In this document: piece by piece, positions 35,120 through 47,007 of the stretch
Layout of the letters: the number at the start of each line of letters is the position of its first letter
Numbering within the stretch: position 1 is the first letter of the stretch
NCBI RefSeq assembly: GCF_002285265.1
Contig: NZ_NSJB01000001.1
Location: 248,001-312,000, forward strand
Source of the DNA: Vandammella animalimorsus
GTDB taxonomy: Bacteria > Pseudomonadota > Gammaproteobacteria > Burkholderiales > Burkholderiaceae_C
DNA: 64,000 bases
Direction: 5' to 3'
The notes under the pieces: model-generated
What the model was told of the DNA's origin: nothing
Databases searched by the model: none
What the model saw: the letters and a program-made list of their open reading frames with translations, nothing else
Translations under genes and position numbers: made by a program

Positions 35120-35279
35120 TACTTGAAAAATAGACCAAAAACAAAAGCAAATTTCTTTCGTCCCTGGCTAGCATGCCGCCCATGTGTGGCCCAGGCCGCC
35201 CGCCGTTGCGGGGTGGGCCGGGGCGCGTTGCGCAGATTCTTGAGCAAGGTCTGCATCCAAATCACAGGGAGAGTTGCGT

Positions 35280-37175
<1,896 letters not shown>

Positions 37176-37220
37176 GCACATTGGCGATTGCACGCCAGTG
37201 CAAGGAACACAAGAGCCTGC

Positions 37221-37269
37221 AAAAACAAGGCGCTGCTGCCACCCGGGAGGATGGCAAGCAGCGCCTTGT
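37221..37269. terminator. terminator between glmS and the lipoprotein cluster
   Basis: ACAAGGCGCTGCT (37225-37237) pairs with AGCAGCGCCTTGT (37257-37269), with an inner GCCA/TGGC extension. On the minus strand it is followed by T5 (complement of A 37221-37225), so it chiefly terminates the minus-strand lipoprotein operon and may also serve glmS. Confidence 0.8.
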
Positions 37270-37290
37270 GGCGGCTGGTTGGCTGGCGGC

Positions 37291-39168
37291 TTATCGCAGT
37301 TGCAGGCTGCTGTAGTGGTCCAGGCCCAGCGGGCCGACGCCCAGGCGGCTTTCGATGGTGTGCAGGTTGCGCAGGAACTCGGCCATGCTGTTGAAGATGG
37401 GCGTGGCCCATTGCTGGCTTGCGGCGATTTCGGGTGCGCGCTCGGGCAGTTGCTCCTGGGCTTTATTCAGATACTCCTCGTATCCCTGCTGCGAGATGCG
37501 CAGCAGGCCATCGCCCAGCAGGCTGCCGTAGTAGCGCAGTTGGAACAGCGTGCCCTGTGACTGGGCGGGCTGCTGCATCAGTTGCTTGAGCGCGGGCAGC
37601 GCGCTGGGGCCCACGGCCAGGCCGACGCCGCCCTGGCCCAGGCCCAGCCAGGCGGGCAGATGGGGCGCAGCGCTGAACGTGCCCGGCGGCAGTGGGCGCG
37701 GCTCGGCGCCCGCTTGCAGGGGCTGGCGGGCCAGCTCTTTGTCGATCAGGCTGGCGTAGGAGTGCAGGGCCTGCGGGTTGTCGCTGAGAAACAGCATGGC
37801 CACTTCGATCTCTGGCTGAGGCTGTGATGGGCCCTGGCGCAGCATGCTTTCAAAGTCCATGCCTGTGAGCATGGCGTAAAAGCCATGGATATTGGGGCCG
37901 ATGGCGTACAGCGGGGCCAGGGCGCGGGGCAGATCGGGCTGGCGCGCCAGTTGCTGCAGCGGCTGCAGCGCCAGGCAGTCGCTGCGGTGGGCGGCCAGGG
38001 CGCTGGACTGCTGTTGCAGCCAGCTGGCGAGCTTGTCCAGCCGCAGGCTCAGGCCGATTTCGAGCAGCGGCTTGACGGCGCTTTGGCCGCTTGGGGCTTG
38101 TGGCAGTTGGCCGGGCAGGGCGGCCAGGCCCTGGCGCAGGGCCTGCTCCAGCACCACGGTGCTGCGTCGCTCCTTGCGCTTGGCGTCCCAGTGGGTGATG
38201 CCGCTGGCCAGCTCGGGCAGTTGGGCGGCCAGCGCGGCGGCGTCGGCGGCGCAGCTGGGCGGCAGCGTGGTGATGCGGCGCTGCTGCGCCAGTTGGGCAT
38301 CGCTGCCCAGGCCGAACAGGGGCAGCAGGCGCTCGCTGGCCATCCAGGCGGTGACGCCGTAGGGCAGGAAGCCGTGGCGCTGGTTGACTTCGTGCAGGGT
38401 CTTGGCCTGGTAGAGGTTTTGCGCGGGCTTTTCCAGCCCGAGCAGCTGGGCCACAGGCAGGGCTGGCGTGTTGCCCGGCTCGATGGCCAGCACCAGGTGC
38501 TGGCCGATCAGCCCCAGCAGCAGCTGGGGCTGCAGTTCTTGCAGGGCTTGCTGCACAGCCTGGGCTTGCTCCTGCCCGGCGGGCAGCGGCAGGGGCGGCA
38601 GTGGCCGCTCGGACTGCGACTGGCCGGACAGCGGGATGGCCCAGTAGCTGGCGTGCTGACCGAGTTGATGTTCTTGCGGGGTGAGCTCCAGCGCGGCCAG
38701 CAGTTGTTCGATCTGCGCGCGGGCGCGCGGTACGTCATGCAAGCTGAGGCGCAGCACTGGGCGCAGCTGCACTTCGTACAGGGCGAACAAGGCATCGGGG
38801 GCCAGGCCAAAGCCTTTGAGGCCTTGCTCCTTGGCGGTGCGGTCCACCTCGCGCAGCCATTGCAGCATGCGCTGGGCGCGGGGCGATTCGGTGGTTTTCG
38901 GGTCTTCGGACAGCAGTTGCAGCAGGCTGTCCCACATGGGTTGCAGCGGGCGCAGCAGTTGCGCATCGAAGGCTTGCGCGGCCTCGGGCGGGGGTTCGAG
39001 GTTGGCCACGGCGTACAGGCTGTGCTGCGGCGCGTATTGCAGCGGGTGCTCGGTGCGCACGCTGCTGCAGGCGCTCAACAGCGCCAGCGCACTGGCGGCC
39101 AGGGCGCTGGCCAGCAGGCGCGGGCGGCGCAGGCTGGGGCGGGGGAGAAGGCGGTGGGCTACTGGCAT
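37291..39168 (-). CDS. large lipoprotein, paralogue 1 of 3
   Basis: A 625-residue putative lipoprotein (lipobox LSAC, Cys34). After the lipobox it shares an ordered set of motifs with the proteins at 40570 and 42442: a start like HPLQYAPQHSLYAVANLE, a block LYEVQLRPVLRLSLHD, LVLAIEPGNTPALPVAQLLGLEKPAQN, a Cys in PPSCAADAAALAA and another in HRSDCLALQPLQQL. The two Cys positions are conserved across the three, suggesting a disulfide. It is the most diverged copy. Related proteins may be labelled DUF3352, but I am not certain. GGAGG precedes the start. It follows pldA on the same strand. Confidence 0.85.
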   Translation of the reverse strand: MPVAHRLLPRPSLRRPRLLASALAASALALLSACSSVRTEHPLQYAPQHSLYAVANLEPPPEAAQAFDAQLLRPLQPMWDSLLQLLSEDPKTTESPRAQRMLQWLREVDRTAKEQGLKGFGLAPDALFALYEVQLRPVLRLSLHDVPRARAQIEQLLAALELTPQEHQLGQHASYWAIPLSGQSQSERPLPPLPLPAGQEQAQAVQQALQELQPQLLLGLIGQHLVLAIEPGNTPALPVAQLLGLEKPAQNLYQAKTLHEVNQRHGFLPYGVTAWMASERLLPLFGLGSDAQLAQQRRITTLPPSCAADAAALAAQLPELASGITHWDAKRKERRSTVVLEQALRQGLAALPGQLPQAPSGQSAVKPLLEIGLSLRLDKLASWLQQQSSALAAHRSDCLALQPLQQLARQPDLPRALAPLYAIGPNIHGFYAMLTGMDFESMLRQGPSQPQPEIEVAMLFLSDNPQALHSYASLIDKELARQPLQAGAEPRPLPPGTFSAAPHLPAWLGLGQGGVGLAVGPSALPALKQLMQQPAQSQGTLFQLRYYGSLLGDGLLRISQQGYEEYLNKAQEQLPERAPEIAASQQWATPIFNSMAEFLRNLHTIESRLGVGPLGLDHYSSLQLR

Positions 39169-39206
39169 GGGAAGTCCTCCGGGTGGTGGAATAGTTTTTG
39201 GGCGTT

Positions 39207-40493
39207 TCAGAAGTCCAACAGGCTCAGGCTGATCGAGAGCGTGGTGCGCTTGAGGTTGTAGTCGATCAGGCTGTCGCCATAGCCGTGAAACAGGCTGGTG
39301 CGCAGGCGCAGGTTGCTTTTGCCGCCCATGAAGCCTTGGCCCAGCGTGCGGTACCACTCCAGCCGCGCCGAGCCGCCGTTTTGTCCGCGCAGCGGGTGGC
39401 GCAGCGTCAGCGCCAGGGTGTTGCGCTGGCTGAGCTCCCAGGTTGAGAGCAACTCGGCGCGACCGATGCGGGCGCTGATGCCGGGGTTGTCGTCCTGGCC
39501 GGGCTTTTCCTTCAGGCGCTGCCAGAGCCGGGCCTGCAGCGTCCAGTGGGGGCCCAGCTCCATGCCGAGCATGGCGTAGTAGCGGTTCCAGCTGCGCGAG
39601 AGCGGGTCGCTCTGGCCGTTGGACTGGTGGTTCAGGCCCAGGCCGGCGTGGCTGAGCTGCGCGCCGCCGGGCAGTTGCCACAGCAGCGGGTAGATGTAGA
39701 TCAGCTCGGGCTCGTGGTCGGTGTTGCGAAACGGGCGCGAGATCTGGCCGTTGAAGGCCTGCCACTGGGCATTGAGCGTGTAGCCGAACCACAGCGAATC
39801 GCGCTTGGTGGGGTGGCCGCGCGTGAGCAGGTGGCTGGCGAGCTTGGTGCGCACCGACAGTTGCAGCTGCGCCTCGTGGTGCTGGTAGGGCTGGCGCGCT
39901 GGCGGCGTGTCGGCATGGGCGGGCGAGTGCGGCTGGCGGTTGACGGCGTCGCCGATGGCGATGCCAATGGTCAGCGGCCGATAGCCACGGAAGCGGAAGT
40001 TGCCGCAATCGGTGTCGGCGTCCAGCTCCCACATGCGCGCCGTGCGCCCAAAGGCGGGATTGCGGCAGCCGTCGTTGGCGCTGACGACGACGGTGGCTGG
40101 CGGCTGCAGCGCCAGCGCATCGGCGCCAGCTGGCGCGCGCAGGCCGTTGCCGCTGGCCTGGGGCTGGGCATCGGCATGGCCGCCGCCGTGGGCCGCTGTC
40201 GTCGTTACTGCCGTGGCCGTTGCCGTGGCGGCGCTGGGGGCGGATGTTTCGGGCGCGGCAGGCGCTGTTGCCAGGCCAGGCTGGCGCTGCTGCGCGGCCC
40301 ATTGGTCGTAGCAGGCCAGGCGCGCGGCATCGCTGTGGCGCAGCTGGTCGCACTGCTGCCAGTGGTGCACGGTGAGGGTGGCCGCGGGCGGCGCGGCCTG
40401 CGCCGGCTGTGCCGTGGCCGGGGCGCTGAGCGACAGGCCCAGGCCGGCGGCCAGGGCCCAGGGCAGGGGGCGGGGTGGGCGATGCGGAAGCAT
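39207..40493 (-). CDS. pldA: outer membrane phospholipase A
   Basis: A 428-residue OMPLA: a signal peptide (cleavage near ATAQ-PAQA), a long Ala/Thr/His-rich linker to about residue 130, then the beta-barrel. The catalytic segment NHQSNGQSDPLSRSWNR contains the His, the Ser two residues later and the Asn of the active site, as in E. coli OMPLA, and the Ser near the Ca2+ site. It hydrolyses phospholipids that reach the outer leaflet. The protein is longer than E. coli PldA (289) because of the linker. It sits between two of the paralogous lipoprotein genes. Confidence 0.95.
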   Translation of the reverse strand: MLPHRPPRPLPWALAAGLGLSLSAPATAQPAQAAPPAATLTVHHWQQCDQLRHSDAARLACYDQWAAQQRQPGLATAPAAPETSAPSAATATATAVTTTAAHGGGHADAQPQASGNGLRAPAGADALALQPPATVVVSANDGCRNPAFGRTARMWELDADTDCGNFRFRGYRPLTIGIAIGDAVNRQPHSPAHADTPPARQPYQHHEAQLQLSVRTKLASHLLTRGHPTKRDSLWFGYTLNAQWQAFNGQISRPFRNTDHEPELIYIYPLLWQLPGGAQLSHAGLGLNHQSNGQSDPLSRSWNRYYAMLGMELGPHWTLQARLWQRLKEKPGQDDNPGISARIGRAELLSTWELSQRNTLALTLRHPLRGQNGGSARLEWYRTLGQGFMGGKSNLRLRTSLFHGYGDSLIDYNLKRTTLSISLSLLDF

Positions 40494-40569
40494 GGGGTTG
40501 GCAGATGAAAACGCACTTGCCCAGGCAGGGCCTGGGCAAGTGCGGGGCGGATGCAGGGCGGTGGAGGGC

Positions 40570-42372
40570 TTACCTTTTCACGTCCTGGCCGCCGAGCAGG
40601 TCGAGCTGGTAGGTGAACTCCATGCCGCGCTCGGTCATCAGCCATTGCGATTCGAGGTAGTCCACTTCCGCATAGATGCTGCGCAGCGCGCTCATCAGCG
40701 GCCAGGTGATGTGGTAGTAGGCCGCCTCCCAGTCCCAGGCGGCCAAGTCCTGCAAGTCCTCCTCGGAGAAGGCTTGCAGCAGCTGGCTGTAGAACGCGCC
40801 CGATGCGCCGATGGCCATGAAGGGTGGCACGGCGGGCGTCGGGGCCTGCATCAGGGTTTCGAGCGTGGCCTTGTTCTCATCGCCCAGGGCCAGACCGATG
40901 GCGCGCTGGCCCACCATGGCCCACAGGGAATTGCCCAGGCCCAGGTCTTCGATGAGCTCGTCGGGCAACTGCTTGGCCGGGCCGCCGGGCTGCAGGCCGA
41001 CCTGGCCCAGCTCGGGCATGAAGCCTTGCAGCATGCCCAGCATGGCGCTGGGGTTGGCGCTGGCCAGCAGCAAGGTGCCGCCCAGCTTGGCCAGGTCCGT
41101 CTCCTGCGACACGTCGGCATTTTGCAGCAGCAGGCTCAGGTCGCTGAAATCGACCCGGAAGCCATGCCCCCAGCTGGAGCCCGCGTGCAGCATGGCGATG
41201 ATGGCGCCGGCGTTTGCCGCCAGCTCATTCAATGGCGCCAGGTATTGGCATCGGTAGGGCGAGGCCTGGATGGACTGGGCCTGTTTTTGCAGCAGATTGG
41301 CCACGGCGCTGGGGTTGGCGCTGATGCCGAGCGTGTAATTGCCGCGCACCGTGCCCAGGCCGGGCACTGGGGCGGGCAGGGCGCTGAAGTCCTTGGCCAG
41401 CTCTGCGTCCATCTCCAGCAGCATGTGGTAGTGCGCTTGCTTGTCGCTGAGCCTCTTGGCGCCGCCGACCAAGCGCGGGGTCTTGCTGACGGCGGCCTGC
41501 AGCTCGCTTTGGCAGCTGGCATCCAGGCGCACGCCGAAGTAGTTCAGCAGGCTGTCGCTCAGCCAGGTGGGCTGCGCTGCGGCGCTGGTCGTGCCGTTGC
41601 CTGTGCCGGCGGCGTTGGCCCCGCTCAGCAGCGCCACCAGGCGCTGCGCATCGACAAAGCCGGTGACGCCGCCGGGCAGGTATTCGTACTGCTTGTTGAT
41701 GGCCTGCATGGTGCCCGCGCCGATGAGCGATTGCGCCGGCTTTTGCACGCCCAGCAGCTGCGCCAGCGGCGCCTCGGGGCGCTGCAGGTCGATGGTCAGC
41801 ACCAGGTGCTTGCCCTGCACCGCAGCCACCAGGCGGGGCTTGAGGTAGGCGTCGGCCTCGGTCTCGGGCTGCAGATACCAGTAGGGCTGGCCATCGACCT
41901 CGGCGCTGGAGAGCTTTTCGCCCGCGCGGGCCTCGGCCTCGGCGATGAAGGCCTTGAACTTGTCGGCGTCGGCCAGCTCGATGCGCAGCACGGGCAGGGC
42001 CTGCACTTCGTACAGCGCCAGCAGTGCATTGACGTCGATGCCCAGGCTGTCAAAGCCGCCGGGGGCGTGGAGCTTTTCCTGCATCAGGCCCAGCAGCGCC
42101 TTGGCGGTCTTCAGTTTGGCCGGGTCGGCGTCCGATTCGGCCAGCACCTGCAGGGCGCGCTCCAGGCTGGGGGCGATGTGCGCGCGCAGCACTTCGAACC
42201 AGTGCTGGTTGAGCTGCTCGTAGCCCTTGGGCGCGCGCTCGAGCGAGCCAAAGGCAAAGGCGGTGTCGGCCGGCGCGTAGGCCAGCGGGATGTTCTTGCT
42301 GCCGGGGCCGCCGATGCTGGCGCAAGCGGCCAGCGCCAGGGCCAGGGCGGCGCTGAGGGCGAGTCGTTTCAT
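40570..42372 (-). CDS. large lipoprotein, paralogue 2 of 3
   Basis: A 600-residue lipoprotein with lipobox LAAC (Cys17). Shared motifs in order: IPLAYAPADTAFAFGSLE, LALYEVQALPVLRIELAD followed by KFKAFIAEAEARAG and YWYLQPE, LVLTIDLQRPEAPLAQLLG, Cys in DASCQSELQAAV, Cys in SPYRCQYLAPLNEL, and a C-terminal MTERGMEF segment. It is about equally spaced from paralogue 3 upstream (69 bases) and pldA downstream (76 bases), so the four genes look like one operon. A TTG five codons upstream is less likely than ATG 42372. The function is unknown. Confidence 0.87.
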   Translation of the reverse strand: MKRLALSAALALALAACASIGGPGSKNIPLAYAPADTAFAFGSLERAPKGYEQLNQHWFEVLRAHIAPSLERALQVLAESDADPAKLKTAKALLGLMQEKLHAPGGFDSLGIDVNALLALYEVQALPVLRIELADADKFKAFIAEAEARAGEKLSSAEVDGQPYWYLQPETEADAYLKPRLVAAVQGKHLVLTIDLQRPEAPLAQLLGVQKPAQSLIGAGTMQAINKQYEYLPGGVTGFVDAQRLVALLSGANAAGTGNGTTSAAAQPTWLSDSLLNYFGVRLDASCQSELQAAVSKTPRLVGGAKRLSDKQAHYHMLLEMDAELAKDFSALPAPVPGLGTVRGNYTLGISANPSAVANLLQKQAQSIQASPYRCQYLAPLNELAANAGAIIAMLHAGSSWGHGFRVDFSDLSLLLQNADVSQETDLAKLGGTLLLASANPSAMLGMLQGFMPELGQVGLQPGGPAKQLPDELIEDLGLGNSLWAMVGQRAIGLALGDENKATLETLMQAPTPAVPPFMAIGASGAFYSQLLQAFSEEDLQDLAAWDWEAAYYHITWPLMSALRSIYAEVDYLESQWLMTERGMEFTYQLDLLGGQDVKR

Positions 42373-42441
42373 GGGGGAGGTCTCCAAAAAAGGGGGAATG
42401 GCCCTGCGGCTGGGGGCAGCCGCAGGGCCGTGGCCGCGTGC

Positions 42442-44211
42442 TTATTTGAAGGTGATGATCTGATCCAGCTCCAGGCCGCGCTCGGAGAAGTGGTAGCGCA
42501 CCGAGGCGTAGTCGATGGCTTGATAGATCTGCGCGACGCTTTGCATCAGCGGCACCATGATGTCGTTGGCCTGCTGTGCCCCGGCGGAGTTGGCCTCCAG
42601 GCTGTTGAGCATTTGCTCGTTGAACTTGCCCAGGCTCTTGGCATAGGTTTCGCCATCGACGCGGTAGTACAGCAGCGGCTCGGGCGAGAGCGCGCTGGCC
42701 TTGAGGGCGCCTTCCAGATCGCCCTTGGCATCGGCGCCGATGCCCAGGCCCAGGCTCTTGTCGGTCATGGCGACCCAGATCGGATCCTGGCCGCCATTGA
42801 CCATGGCCGTCATCGGCGATTGCAGCTGCTTGGCCGCGCCGTTGGGCTCCAGGCCCAGCTGGGCCAGCTCAGGCATCATGCCCTGGGCCATGCCCAGCAG
42901 CGACATGGGGTTGGGCGAGGCCACGACCAGCATGCCACGCACGAGCTGCTGTTCGATGTTGATGTCGTTGAGCACCAGGCGCGCGCCTGTGAGCCAGCCC
43001 GAGGCCGCATACAGGCCGGCCAAGCTCTGGTTGAGGCTGGCCATGCCTTCGTTGAGCGGCTGCAGGTGCTCGCACTGGTAGGGGGCGGTCTGCACGGCAT
43101 TGGCCTGGGCCTGCAGGAAGCCGGCGAGCTGATCGATCTTCAGCCCGAAGCCGAACTCCAGGCCCTTCTTGGCGCTGCCCAGGCCCGGCACGGGGGCGCT
43201 GAGCTTTTGCAGCTCGCCAGCCAGGGGCTTGTCCAGCTCCAGCGTGCCGGCCACGCCCACTTTCTTGCCATCGACCTCGGTGGCGCCAACTACCAGACGC
43301 GGCGCCTTGGCCGCCAGGGCGGCAAATTCGCTGCGGCAGGCCTCGCTCCAGTTCGCCGGCGGCGGGTAAATGGACTGGCCCTCGGTGAACAGCGCCAGCA
43401 CGCGGCGCGTGTCCACCAGCATGTTGCCGCCATAGGGCTTGTAGCCATAGGCTTTCTGCAGCTCGGTCAAGGTGCCGGCCTGCAATATGGACTGGGCCGG
43501 GCGCTCCAGGCCCAGCAGTTGGGCCAGCGGCGCGGCGCTGTGCTGCGGATCGAGCGCCAGCACCAAGTGCTGGCCGACGATGGCCGTCACCAGGCGCGCG
43601 CGCTCCAGCGGCTGGGCGCTGGCCGCATCGGCGCCAGCGGCTTGGGCGGGCTGGGCCGCTTGCTCGCCCAGCGGCATGAACCAGTAGGCCTGGCCGTTGA
43701 GCTCGCCAGTCTCCAGCTTCTGGCCGGCGCGGGTTTCCACCTCGGCGATGAAGGCCCTGAACTTGTCCGCATCCTGCAGCTCCATGCGCAGCACCGGCGC
43801 GCCGCCGATTTCGTAGACGGCCCCCAGGCTCTTGAGGCTCATGCCCAGGCTGGCCAGGGTGTCGGGCTGCTGCAGGCGCTCCTTGAGCAAGTCCATCACG
43901 GCATTGGCGCGCGCGGTCTGCTCGTTTTGCTCCTCCTGGGCCAGCGCCTGGCGGGCGCGCTCCAGGCTTTGCAGCATGCCGACCTTGAATTGCTGCGCCA
44001 TGCCATTGATGGTGTCGATGTAAGCCTGCGGCGCGGGCTCCATGGCCCCGGCCACGAAGGCGGTGGCGCTGGGGGCGAAGGCCAGCGGGATGTCGGCCTT
44101 GGCAGGAGCGGCGGGCTGGGCCTGCTGCTTGCCGACCTCTGGGCTGTCCTCATTCTTGGAGCAGGCGCTCAGGGCAACGGCCAGGGCGATGGCCAGGGTG
44201 GTTTTTTTCAT
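42442..44211 (-). CDS. large lipoprotein, paralogue 3 of 3
   Basis: A 589-residue lipoprotein with lipobox LSAC (Cys17). It has the same architecture as the copy at 40570: IPLAFAPSATAFVAGAMEPAP, AVYEIGGAPVLRMELQD, KFRAFIAEVETRAGQKL, YWFMPLGE, LVLALDPQHSAAPLAQLLG, Cys in SEACRSEFAALAA, Cys in APYQCEHLQPLNE, and a closing FSERGLELDQI. It is the first gene of the cluster; its promoter lies in 44212-44697. The mature protein is likely periplasmic or outer-membrane anchored. Confidence 0.87.
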   Translation of the reverse strand: MKKTTLAIALAVALSACSKNEDSPEVGKQQAQPAAPAKADIPLAFAPSATAFVAGAMEPAPQAYIDTINGMAQQFKVGMLQSLERARQALAQEEQNEQTARANAVMDLLKERLQQPDTLASLGMSLKSLGAVYEIGGAPVLRMELQDADKFRAFIAEVETRAGQKLETGELNGQAYWFMPLGEQAAQPAQAAGADAASAQPLERARLVTAIVGQHLVLALDPQHSAAPLAQLLGLERPAQSILQAGTLTELQKAYGYKPYGGNMLVDTRRVLALFTEGQSIYPPPANWSEACRSEFAALAAKAPRLVVGATEVDGKKVGVAGTLELDKPLAGELQKLSAPVPGLGSAKKGLEFGFGLKIDQLAGFLQAQANAVQTAPYQCEHLQPLNEGMASLNQSLAGLYAASGWLTGARLVLNDINIEQQLVRGMLVVASPNPMSLLGMAQGMMPELAQLGLEPNGAAKQLQSPMTAMVNGGQDPIWVAMTDKSLGLGIGADAKGDLEGALKASALSPEPLLYYRVDGETYAKSLGKFNEQMLNSLEANSAGAQQANDIMVPLMQSVAQIYQAIDYASVRYHFSERGLELDQIITFK

Positions 44212-44697
44212 GGTTCCTCCAGTGGAAAGTGGCATGTATGTGTTGGCTGATCGGGCAGCGGCCGTGATCCAGGTGTGCGTCTACAGGGTAATTGCTTACA
44301 TGTGATGGTAGGCGCTGCTGCGTGACGTGTGAGGTCTCGGGCCGTTGGAGATGGGGCGCAGCGCCTGGGGCATGGGTGGGCCAGGAACGCAAGTGGCGCG
44401 GCGTCCGAAGCCCTTGGCAATGGCCTTTGGCTTGGCTTGGTGGTGGTTGCAGGTTGTTGTCGGGGCGCAATGATAGCGGAGCGCCATTGCGCCGCTGGGG
44501 CTGAGGATGAGCGCATGGCGAAAAGGAGTGCAAGCTGAGGCAATCATGCGTAACAAGAGTTGTCAATGCTTGCGCAAAGCTTGCATGACTGGGGTTTGCC
44601 CGCAGTGGGCCCGGACTCGCCGGCAGGCTGGCGCGATGCTCTTACAATGCCACGGCCCCAACACGATCTCCTTGCATAGTGTGAACAGGCCCTAGGC
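44212..44697. other. 486-bp divergent intergenic region
   Basis: The gap between the lipoprotein operon (minus) and hisB (plus). It holds a TACAAT at 44643-44648 that could be the -10 of the his promoter, although no good -35 lies 17 bases upstream. A 49-codon frame at 44546-44695 has no His-rich run, so it is not a classical his leader peptide. The remainder shows no coding potential. Confidence 0.4.
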
Positions 44698-45330
44698 ATG
44701 ACTTCCTCCGCTCTCGTCCCCACGCAAACCAGCGATCCTGGCGATCGCATTGCCGAAGTCAATCGCAATACGGCGGAGACCCGCATCCACGTGCGCATCA
44801 ACCTCGATGGCCGGGGCGTGTCCAATCTGCGCACTGGCATTGGCTTTTTCGATCACATGCTCGACCAGGTGGCCCGCCACGGCATGCTGGATCTGGACGT
44901 GCACTGCGAGGGCGATCTGCACATCGACGGCCACCACACGGTCGAGGACGTGGGCATTGCGCTGGGCCAGGCGCTGGCGCTGGCCGTGGGCGACAAAAAA
45001 GGCCTGCGCCGCTATGGCCATGCCTACGTGCCGCTGGACGAGGCGCTCAGCCGCGTGGTGATCGATCTCTCCGGCCGCCCGGGGCTGTTCTTCCACATCC
45101 CCTTCACCAGCGCGATGATCGGCCAGTTCGACACCCAGCTGGCCTGCGAATTCTTCCAGGGCTTTGCCAACCACGCCCAGGCCACGCTGCACGTGGACAA
45201 CCTCAAGGGCATCAACGCCCACCACCAGGCCGAAACGGCCTTCAAGGCCTTTGGCCGGGCGCTGCGCCAGGCTGTTGAGCGCGATGCGCGCATGGCCGGC
45301 ATCATGCCCTCGACCAAGGGGGTGCTGTGA
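44698..45330 (+). CDS. hisB: imidazoleglycerol-phosphate dehydratase
   Basis: A 210-residue single-function HisB (no phosphatase domain) catalysing the sixth step of histidine synthesis. The manganese-binding repeats FDHMLDQ and [10 protein letters not shown] and a second HH-containing block INAHHQAE are present. It is the first visible gene of the his cluster on this strand; hisG and hisD must lie elsewhere. ATG 44698 is used. The next ORF, 63 bases on, is not a his gene. Confidence 0.96.
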
Positions 45331-45393
45331 TGGCCGCCTGCGGCCTGGCCCAGCTGGCGTGAAGGCGCAGCCGATCAGTCTGTGGCCCCAGCC

Positions 45394-47007
45394 ATGAACA
45401 AACGCTTGCTTCTTCTTGCCTGGCTGGCCGGCTGCGCCTGCCCCGGCCTGGCGGCATGGGATTTGCCCGCCGGCTGGAGCCGCCAGTCGCAGCAGCCGGG
45501 CATCGTCAGCTACAGCCCGGCCGGGCTGGGCGGGCGCATCTTCATGGTCGTGGCGCTCGATCCGCTGCCCATGCAGGGGCAGACGCCCCAGCAGTGGACG
45601 CAGAGCATGGCCGAGCAGCTCTCGCAAGGCTACGGCAAGATCGCCGCGCGCGAGGCGCTGCAGCACAAGGCGCCGCTGTGGAGCGCCACGCACCGCATCG
45701 ACGCCCAGGGCCGGACGCTGGTGGCCACGTACACGGCCCTGCCGCTGGACGACGGGCGCGCCAGGCTGGTCTTTTTGGTCAGCGAGCAGTCCGAGGCCTT
45801 GCTGGCCCAGCACGGCCAGCAAGGCGCGCAGGTGCTGGCTGCCGCATTGGCCGAGAGCCAGCCCAGCCAGGGCGAGGCAGCCAGCCCGCTCGCGCCGCCC
45901 GCATCCCCGGCCGAACCCGTCAGCTCGGGCAAGCCCGAGCGCACGCCAGAGCACACACGGGATCGCAGCTATGCCGGCCTGGCCGCCGACGGCGCCACCA
46001 TTGGCGGCGCGTTCACCTTTGGCCAATACCTCTGCCAGGTCGAAAACGGCCGCCACCCCTACGAAGTGACGTTGGAGCTGTACCCGAACAAAGAGCTGCG
46101 CAGCAGCATGAGCCGCCTGAAGACGGGCCGCTTCAGCTACCACCCGGACAAGGGCACGGTGAACATCGACGAGAAAATCCACCTGCTGAATTTCGAATAC
46201 CGCGGCCAGGTGCAAATGGTGTCGGTGTACTTCAAGGACCGCCAGGGGCGGGCCTACATCCGGGGCGAGGATCTGGACGAGGGCCAGGGCACGACCTGCC
46301 GCCACGTCGGCCCCAGCGCCTCGCCTTCGCCCAGCGAGGAGGAGGCCGCCCAGGCTGAGGCGCGGCGCTTCAAATGGGTCACGCCGCCCGGGCAAGGCGT
46401 GCAGCTCGGCCAGATCGAGGCCATCCTGCACAGCGCCGAGTTCGTCAACGACAGCCTGGGCATGCGCCTGGAGGAGGAGCACCTGCTGCTGCTCAAGGAC
46501 GGCTGGGCCTATACCGGACTGCGCGTGCCGCCGGCCGATCTGGACGTGCGCGCCTCGCGCGCCAACGAGCCGGGGAAGTGGCGGCGCTGGCGCAAGCAAC
46601 GCGGGCAGTATCAGCTGGAGAAGGTGGACGCCTGGGAAGATGCGCCGGGCACCCCGGCGCGCCCGGCCCGCGCCGATCAACGGCTGCACGGGGCCTACAC
46701 CGCTTCCAGCTATCACGGCAACATCTACACCAGCGGCTACGCCTTCAAGGACACGCTGTATTTCAAGCGCGACGGCACGCTGGGCAGCAGCTCCAGCATG
46801 CGCGGCGGTACCACGGCGATGAACAGCGGCACCTTCAGCGCCAACGTCGCCTCCGACCGCAGCGACGAGCGCCCGGTGCGCTACCGCCTGGACGGCTACA
46901 CCCTGGAGCGCCGCTACCCCGACGGCCAGAGCACGCGCAGCCTGTTCTTCTTCTGGGGCGAGGGCGAGCAGCACATCACCATCAATGGCACGACCTACAG
47001 TCAGTAA
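45394..47007 (+). CDS. exported protein of unknown function within the his operon
   Basis: A 537-residue protein with an N-terminal export signal. It contains LAGC (Cys14), which fits a lipobox, or it could be cleaved at GLAA. The mature part has an N-terminal domain (about 25-150, resembling a stress/plasma-protein-like PsbP shape), a Ser/Pro/Glu linker, a middle beta-rich domain (about 195-310: GGAFTFGQYLCQVENGRHPY) and a C-terminal beta-rich domain (about 425-537: YRLDGYTLERRYPDG ... ITINGTTY). No catalytic motif is recognisable. It sits between hisB and hisH, the place where many betaproteobacteria carry marC. Its role and any link to histidine are unknown. Confidence 0.85.
   Translation: MNKRLLLLAWLAGCACPGLAAWDLPAGWSRQSQQPGIVSYSPAGLGGRIFMVVALDPLPMQGQTPQQWTQSMAEQLSQGYGKIAAREALQHKAPLWSATHRIDAQGRTLVATYTALPLDDGRARLVFLVSEQSEALLAQHGQQGAQVLAAALAESQPSQGEAASPLAPPASPAEPVSSGKPERTPEHTRDRSYAGLAADGATIGGAFTFGQYLCQVENGRHPYEVTLELYPNKELRSSMSRLKTGRFSYHPDKGTVNIDEKIHLLNFEYRGQVQMVSVYFKDRQGRAYIRGEDLDEGQGTTCRHVGPSASPSPSEEEAAQAEARRFKWVTPPGQGVQLGQIEAILHSAEFVNDSLGMRLEEEHLLLLKDGWAYTGLRVPPADLDVRASRANEPGKWRRWRKQRGQYQLEKVDAWEDAPGTPARPARADQRLHGAYTASSYHGNIYTSGYAFKDTLYFKRDGTLGSSSSMRGGTTAMNSGTFSANVASDRSDERPVRYRLDGYTLERRYPDGQSTRSLFFFWGEGEQHITINGTTYSQ

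Follow-up and report, generated by a model that had tools for sequence, protein, structure and literature searches.

A stretch of 64,000 nucleotides from Vandammella animalimorsus (RefSeq assembly GCF_002285265.1, contig NZ_NSJB01000001.1, positions 248,001 to 312,000; hereafter the window) was found to encode three large lipoproteins, LP1, LP2 and LP3, which form a real and apparently undescribed family of envelope lipoproteins and among which a gene for outer-membrane phospholipase A (OMPLA), pldA, is placed. Lipid or amphiphile binding is tentatively considered the likeliest single function of these proteins, at a probability somewhat below even. All four genes lie in the order LP1, LP2, pldA, LP3, with gaps of 69, 76 and 38 bases, which confirms the gene sizes and the common strand reported in the first-pass annotation of this DNA:

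42442..44211, minus strand: LP1, lipoprotein of 589 amino acids (open reading frame (ORF), lipobox LSAC-S, paralogy, AlphaFold model)
40570..42372, minus strand: LP2, lipoprotein of 600 amino acids (ORF, lipobox LAAC-A, paralogy, AlphaFold model)
39207..40493, minus strand: pldA, outer-membrane phospholipase A of 428 amino acids (PF02253 match, alignment to a solved phospholipase A1 chain)
37291..39168, minus strand: LP3, lipoprotein of 625 amino acids (ORF, lipobox LSAC-S, paralogy)

The three lipoproteins are full-length paralogs, far beyond chance, as had been proposed from their shared motifs: LP1 and LP2 are 36% identical over 580 columns (E 1e-112), and LP3 is 28% identical to both LP1 (E 6e-39) and LP2 (E 5e-27). 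The motifs and the two cysteines noticed at first reading proved to be real, with 11 columns being invariant across 24 aligned members, including P47, Y133, P139, V140, C292 and C380 of LP1. The two cysteines (C292 and C380) are thus found in 24/24 members, and the remaining invariant columns are all Pro, Gly or Val except for one Tyr. LP1 of V. animalimorsus NML 03-0146 is 92% identical to that of the window, and 11 relatives have frames of 561–703 amino acids.

The lipoboxes read LSAC, LAAC and LSAC in LP1, LP2 and LP3, with Ser, Ala and Ser, respectively, following the Cys. The residue after the lipobox Cys governs lipoprotein sorting, by what is called the Asp rule. In none of the three proteins is the lipobox Cys followed by Asp, the pattern taken here to indicate the outer membrane, which is thus their predicted location. 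Across the family the lipobox Cys is present in 17 of the 24 aligned members, none with Asp after it, and the other seven have a hydrophobic N-terminus without this Cys.

No Pfam or NCBIfam model was matched above its cut-off by LP1–LP3 or by any of the eight relatives scanned, and the profile search proposed as a check therefore did not place them in a characterised family. Since they match no such model, members of the family are probably annotated as hypothetical proteins, and the family merits a model of its own. Sequence relatives in the PDB were not found (best E 1.2 for LP1 and 0.77 for the 24-row profile). A profile–profile comparison of the family halves gave no significant sign of internal duplication, the best P being 0.013 outside the stretches shared by construction. 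A defence-system identity was rejected, the two PADLOC matches being at chance level (E 0.06 and 0.048). No description of these lipoproteins, or of their place beside pldA, was found in the literature searched, most subscription papers lying outside its scope; to that extent the earlier statement that no such arrangement had been described still stands.

Each LP is predicted to consist of a signal peptide and lipobox followed by an ectodomain of ~550 amino acids, which would be built of alternating strand, helix-pair and hairpin units and hold one probable disulphide (C292–C380 in LP1). The family would be one of periplasm-facing envelope proteins scattered in the class Gammaproteobacteria (in the GTDB sense) and, in this genus, of lipoproteins with signals fitting the outer membrane. 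AlphaFold models were obtained for LP1 (predicted local distance difference test score 78.6, predicted template modelling (TM) score 0.74) and LP2 (80.5 and 0.80), and these agree in secondary structure. When compared with the PDB by Foldseek, both models ranked a chain of TP0453 (PDB 3k8g, 3k8h, 3k8j) first, with E 0.015 and probability 0.98 for LP1 and E 0.033 and probability 0.96 for LP2. TP0453 reportedly inserts amphipathic helices and is said to affect membrane permeability. It resembles the lipid-binding lipoproteins LolA, LprG and LppX, a resemblance of use here only as a lead; none of these is named in the best 50 of 380 and the best 50 of 614 Foldseek matches. TP0453 of Treponema pallidum is placed as a lipoprotein in the inner leaflet of the outer membrane (PMC7521688). 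The likeness lies in the top Foldseek rank and in the nature of an outer-membrane lipoprotein, predicted for the LPs, whereas TP0453 has ~250 amino acids as against ~550 and shows no sequence match to the LPs.

Because of this weak likeness to TP0453, which is the only lead yielded by the structure prediction suggested earlier, it is tentatively proposed, with a little less than even confidence, that, where the outer membrane faces the periplasm, the LP ectodomain either binds an amphiphile such as lipid or places amphipathic helices on the membrane. A hydrophobic moment of at least 0.40 was found in 6 of the 12 predicted LP1 helices, which is compatible with amphipathic insertion and proves nothing. 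If the LPs do bind lipid, the family would add a part to outer-membrane lipid upkeep. Several observations weigh against this proposal. The LP1 and LP2 models are not independent, as their AlphaFold alignments consisted of the same 11 rows in differing order. No Foldseek match at E <= 0.001 was obtained for either model, and the match to TP0453 had a TM-score of 0.40–0.42 on the target and 0.20–0.21 on the query, with a root mean square deviation of 8.4–10.2 Å; the LPs thus reached neither of the values (E <= 0.001 or TM-score >0.5) taken to mark a TP0453-like fold. The high-moment helices of LP1 have a low mean hydrophobicity and need not bind a membrane. The seven members without a lipobox Cys indicate that the predicted outer-membrane place is not general across the family. 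Finally, pldA is found close to LP genes in two distant clades, more than would be expected by chance.

DUF3352 (PF11832) was considered as a relative and rejected. Its 536-position model is similar in length to the LPs and its strand rhythm resembles theirs; no match was seen up to E 1 for LP1–LP3 or for 8/8 relatives, nor at E <= 0.01 in the genome of the window. The weak DUF3352 match in one other genome (G353) sits on another contig than its LP.

The family has a scattered distribution. A search with LP1 gave matches in 10/60 relatives, all in its own genus. In a draw of 200 genomes from the GTDB family, the profile matched three, all of this genus (1/141 genera), and no LP relatives were found in the other genera among the 141 sampled. 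A draw from the phylum gave 12/398 genomes, namely the window's own and 11 from nine other genera of the same class, the strongest match outside the window's genus having E 2.2e-105. A wider profile applied to a draw from the class matched 15/369 genomes, the window's own included; ten of the others matched at E 3e-41 or better, seven of these being in further genera, and four weak matches (G690, G744, G808 and G947; E 1.6e-4 to 7.1e-4 over ~85–103 positions) were excluded from all counts. In total, the family was found in 16 genera besides that of the window (17 in all), all of the class Gammaproteobacteria. One of these genera, g213, had a profile match in 55 of the 60 genomes drawn. A 27% match on an Oscillospiraceae contig (L032) was rejected, as it had no profile match and by eye is a DNA polymerase frame.

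In a maximum-likelihood tree of 34 rows, LP2 (8 rows, support 100/100), LP3 (5 rows, 100/100) and LP1 (9 rows, 80/95) of different genomes grouped apart, so that the duplications would be older than the divergence of the genus. The single LP of genome G003 fell beside LP1 and LP2. The tree was rooted at its midpoint, and its deep order is unsure, with composition varying among rows and some branches being long.

Judged from its sequence, pldA is an ordinary OMPLA gene. Its product matches PF02253 at 256.5 bits (cut-off 27; E 3.8e-76), with profile positions 3–257 of 257 aligned to residues 153–425; the LPs do not match this family. The catalytic residues of OMPLA are H142, S144 and N156 (E. 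coli numbering), and the catalytic His, Ser and Asn are present in the columns of the HxSNG and SWNR blocks, both of which are kept in the alignment to the solved phospholipase A1 chain 7ezz_A. The protein has an N-terminal extension of ~150 amino acids (40038–40493, minus strand), which carries a C...RLACYD motif and gave sub-threshold matches to the type VI secretion VasI models PF11319 (E 0.054) and TIGR03360 (E 0.012).

Gene context within the genus was compared in ten genomes, the window's included. In the window, LP1 is the first gene of the cluster and is divergent from a plus-strand gene at 44698–45330 which is presumably hisB; this arrangement was found in 9/10 members (the window and eight loci). 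The other flank is a plus-strand gene at 35274–37175, presumably glmS. Both presumed genes are 99% identical to their counterparts in L055. A pldA match is present in 9/10 members, G003 having none, and it follows the LP genes in five of these nine. The order LP1-LP2-pldA-LP3 is that of the window's genome, G007 and G008, while G001 has LP1-LP2-pldA and G004 has LP1-pldA; in G002, G005, G006 and G009 pldA is away from the LPs. LP3 is known in six genomes, adjoining pldA in three and lying elsewhere in the other three, and only three close genomes have the three paralogs together with pldA. No gene partner was common to all the neighbourhoods inspected, as far as their genes were listed and with gene calls that were rough (antisense frames were included in GC-rich loci).

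Beyond the genus, the linkage to pldA was found to recur in g213, where a PF02253 match lies within 10 kb of the LP in 44 of the 55 LP-bearing genomes, in every case 3' of the LP and on the opposite strand (within 1 kb in 13). In three of the 44 (G963, G970 and G985) the nearby match is a short pldA remnant and a full one lies in another part of the genome, so that a near-full-length match is near the LP in 41/55. The other 11 comprise three genomes without a PF02253 match, six with it on another contig and two with it far away. pldA is retained in all five g213 genomes that gave no LP match. Among the 15 LP-bearing genomes of other genera, six have no PF02253 match, and in the nine with both genes (nine genera) pldA was within 10 kb in none. 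In three of these the two genes share a contig, at distances of 206 kb to 3.2 Mb, and in six they are on separate contigs; among the latter, G438 and G790 have a contig end close to the LP, beyond which a neighbouring pldA may have been missed. In total, ten of the 80 LP-bearing genomes tested (10 + 55 + 15) lack a PF02253 match. The lack of linkage elsewhere that would have told against the first-pass proposal was not clearly seen: the linkage recurs in one distant genus and was found in none of nine others. A calculation of our own, done with no tool and after the result was seen, gives ~1–2% as the chance of such a pldA neighbour in one of the ten other genera with both genes.

Some further features were noted at these distant loci. 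The short pldA remnants of G963 (contig L098), G970 and G985 are on the LP contig, ~5 kb from the LP gene; G1014 also has a remnant, and all four genomes have a full, lower-scoring pldA elsewhere. A weak S41-peptidase-like gene of 526 amino acids (L083, 6242–7822; 23.9 bits, just under the cut-off of 24) lies between pldA and LP, and in L096, L097 and L098 genes of 485–532 amino acids flank the LP on the side of pldA.

The first-pass annotation had also proposed a single operon, which was not confirmed and appears doubtful, as strong hairpins lie between LP1 and LP2 and between LP2 and pldA, with none between pldA and LP3:

42400..42429, minus strand: LP1/LP2 gap, hairpin with a 13-pair stem and a T run starting 8 bases after it
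40512..40544, minus strand: LP2/pldA gap, terminator-like hairpin with a 15-pair stem and a trailing TTTT, listed in the terminator scan
37225..37269 (approximate), minus strand: strong hairpin after LP3 with a T run, in the gap shared with the plus-strand gene ending at 37175

The 70-base stretch between LP1 and LP2 folds at -32.9 kcal/mol (z -3.54) and the 82-base stretch between LP2 and pldA at -34.9 kcal/mol (z -5.40), with 0/300 shuffles reaching the hairpin score, a laxer one than that of the terminator scan, in either case; 37190–37295 folds at -56.4 kcal/mol (z -5.40) and is in part listed in the terminator scan. The T run of the LP1/LP2 hairpin is too far from its stem for the stricter scan, which the LP2/pldA hairpin fits. 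With this laxer score, a hairpin was found in the LP2/pldA gap of 4/4 genomes, the LP1/LP2 gap of 4/8, the pldA/LP3 gap of 0/3 and the LP1/pldA gap of 0/1 (G004). Because the laxer script excluded loops of >9 bases, it scored nothing between LP1 and LP2 in G002 and G006, where long-loop hairpins with T runs are seen by eye; G001 has no hairpin in this gap and G008 an interrupted one. The fold z of 0.00 for 8240–8330 of L030 belongs to a stretch which ended short of the LP2/pldA hairpin. Terminator-like sites are not in excess across the region (5 found against 5.6 in shuffles), and the case therefore rests on stem length and place. No promoter-like site was found in 36900–44900. The LP2/pldA hairpin is only 18 bases from the pldA start, and read-through or an internal start remain compatible with it. 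Judging by these signals, pldA is probably not co-transcribed with LP1 and LP2, and co-transcription with LP3 may occur.

How the LPs relate to pldA bears on which reading of the family is preferred. The LPs are unlikely to be PldA partners that bind the enzyme, or the lysophospholipid and fatty acid it yields, and thereby raise its activity, curb it or remove what it leaves behind. The 5/9 genus members with pldA next to the LPs and the 41/55 g213 genomes argue for such a partnership; the ten LP-bearing genomes without PF02253, the five LP-less g213 genomes which keep pldA, the 0/9 other genera (6/9 on separate contigs), the LP2/pldA hairpin in 4/4 genomes where the genes adjoin and the opposite strands in 44/44 g213 cases argue against it. 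The opposite strands and the free loss of either gene also speak against an obligate LP–PldA pair, and the tie between them is suggestive and looks loose. A chance neighbourhood, in which a hisB-LP1-LP2 locus gained or lost pldA and LP3, is judged evenly balanced; it concerns the linkage alone and excludes no function. It agrees with the link of LP1 to presumed hisB being tighter (9/10) than that to pldA, with no likely functional tie, and with LP3 lying elsewhere in 3/6 genomes, but not readily with the recurrence of the same neighbour in a distant genus, given the small chance estimated above. A shared role of LPs and PldA in handling stray phospholipid is possible. A more far-reaching reading is improbable: the family would be a dedicated phospholipid-damage module, in which several outer-membrane LPs of different specificities take up misplaced phospholipid, or else lysophospholipid and fatty acid from the OMPLA reaction, at the periplasmic side and pass them along, and distant genomes would place LPs beside pldA for this reason. 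If true, it would supply a carrier step for OMPLA products which is lacking in current schemes; to our knowledge, the fate of these products on the periplasmic side is not settled.

The LPs might also bind protein, serving as a scaffold, chaperone or assembly factor with another envelope protein as ligand and pldA as a bystander, a plausible account to which we give roughly a one-in-three weight in our judgement. The large ectodomain, the invariant columns with no catalytic set and the lack of a common gene partner in the neighbourhoods inspected are in keeping with it. However, no envelope scaffold or chaperone was recognised among the best 50 Foldseek matches for either model (out of 380 and 614), and the first-ranked chain is an outer-membrane-associated lipoprotein. 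The overall interpretation offered by the first-pass annotation was consequently supported in part: its lipoprotein side was borne out, with no family model and a weak structural lead, while the operon was not, and neither was control of PldA, for which the genomes having one gene without the other and the 4/9 genus members with pldA away from the LPs give no support.

A few other features of the window and its relatives were observed. A gene for a secreted-looking protein of 541 amino acids (45382–47007, plus strand) lies between presumed hisB and hisH; by tblastn it was found in L055 and L030 and in none of the other 14 genus loci searched. Mechanical ORFs of 1292 amino acids (40372–44250, plus strand) and 1082 amino acids (37291–40539, minus strand) lie on the strand opposite the cluster or continue through pldA out of frame, and are most likely products of the high G+C content and not genes. 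In three genomes of family f44 (L074, L075 and L077), the LP gene is preceded by a conserved gene (blast cluster 17), which is presumably pyrB.

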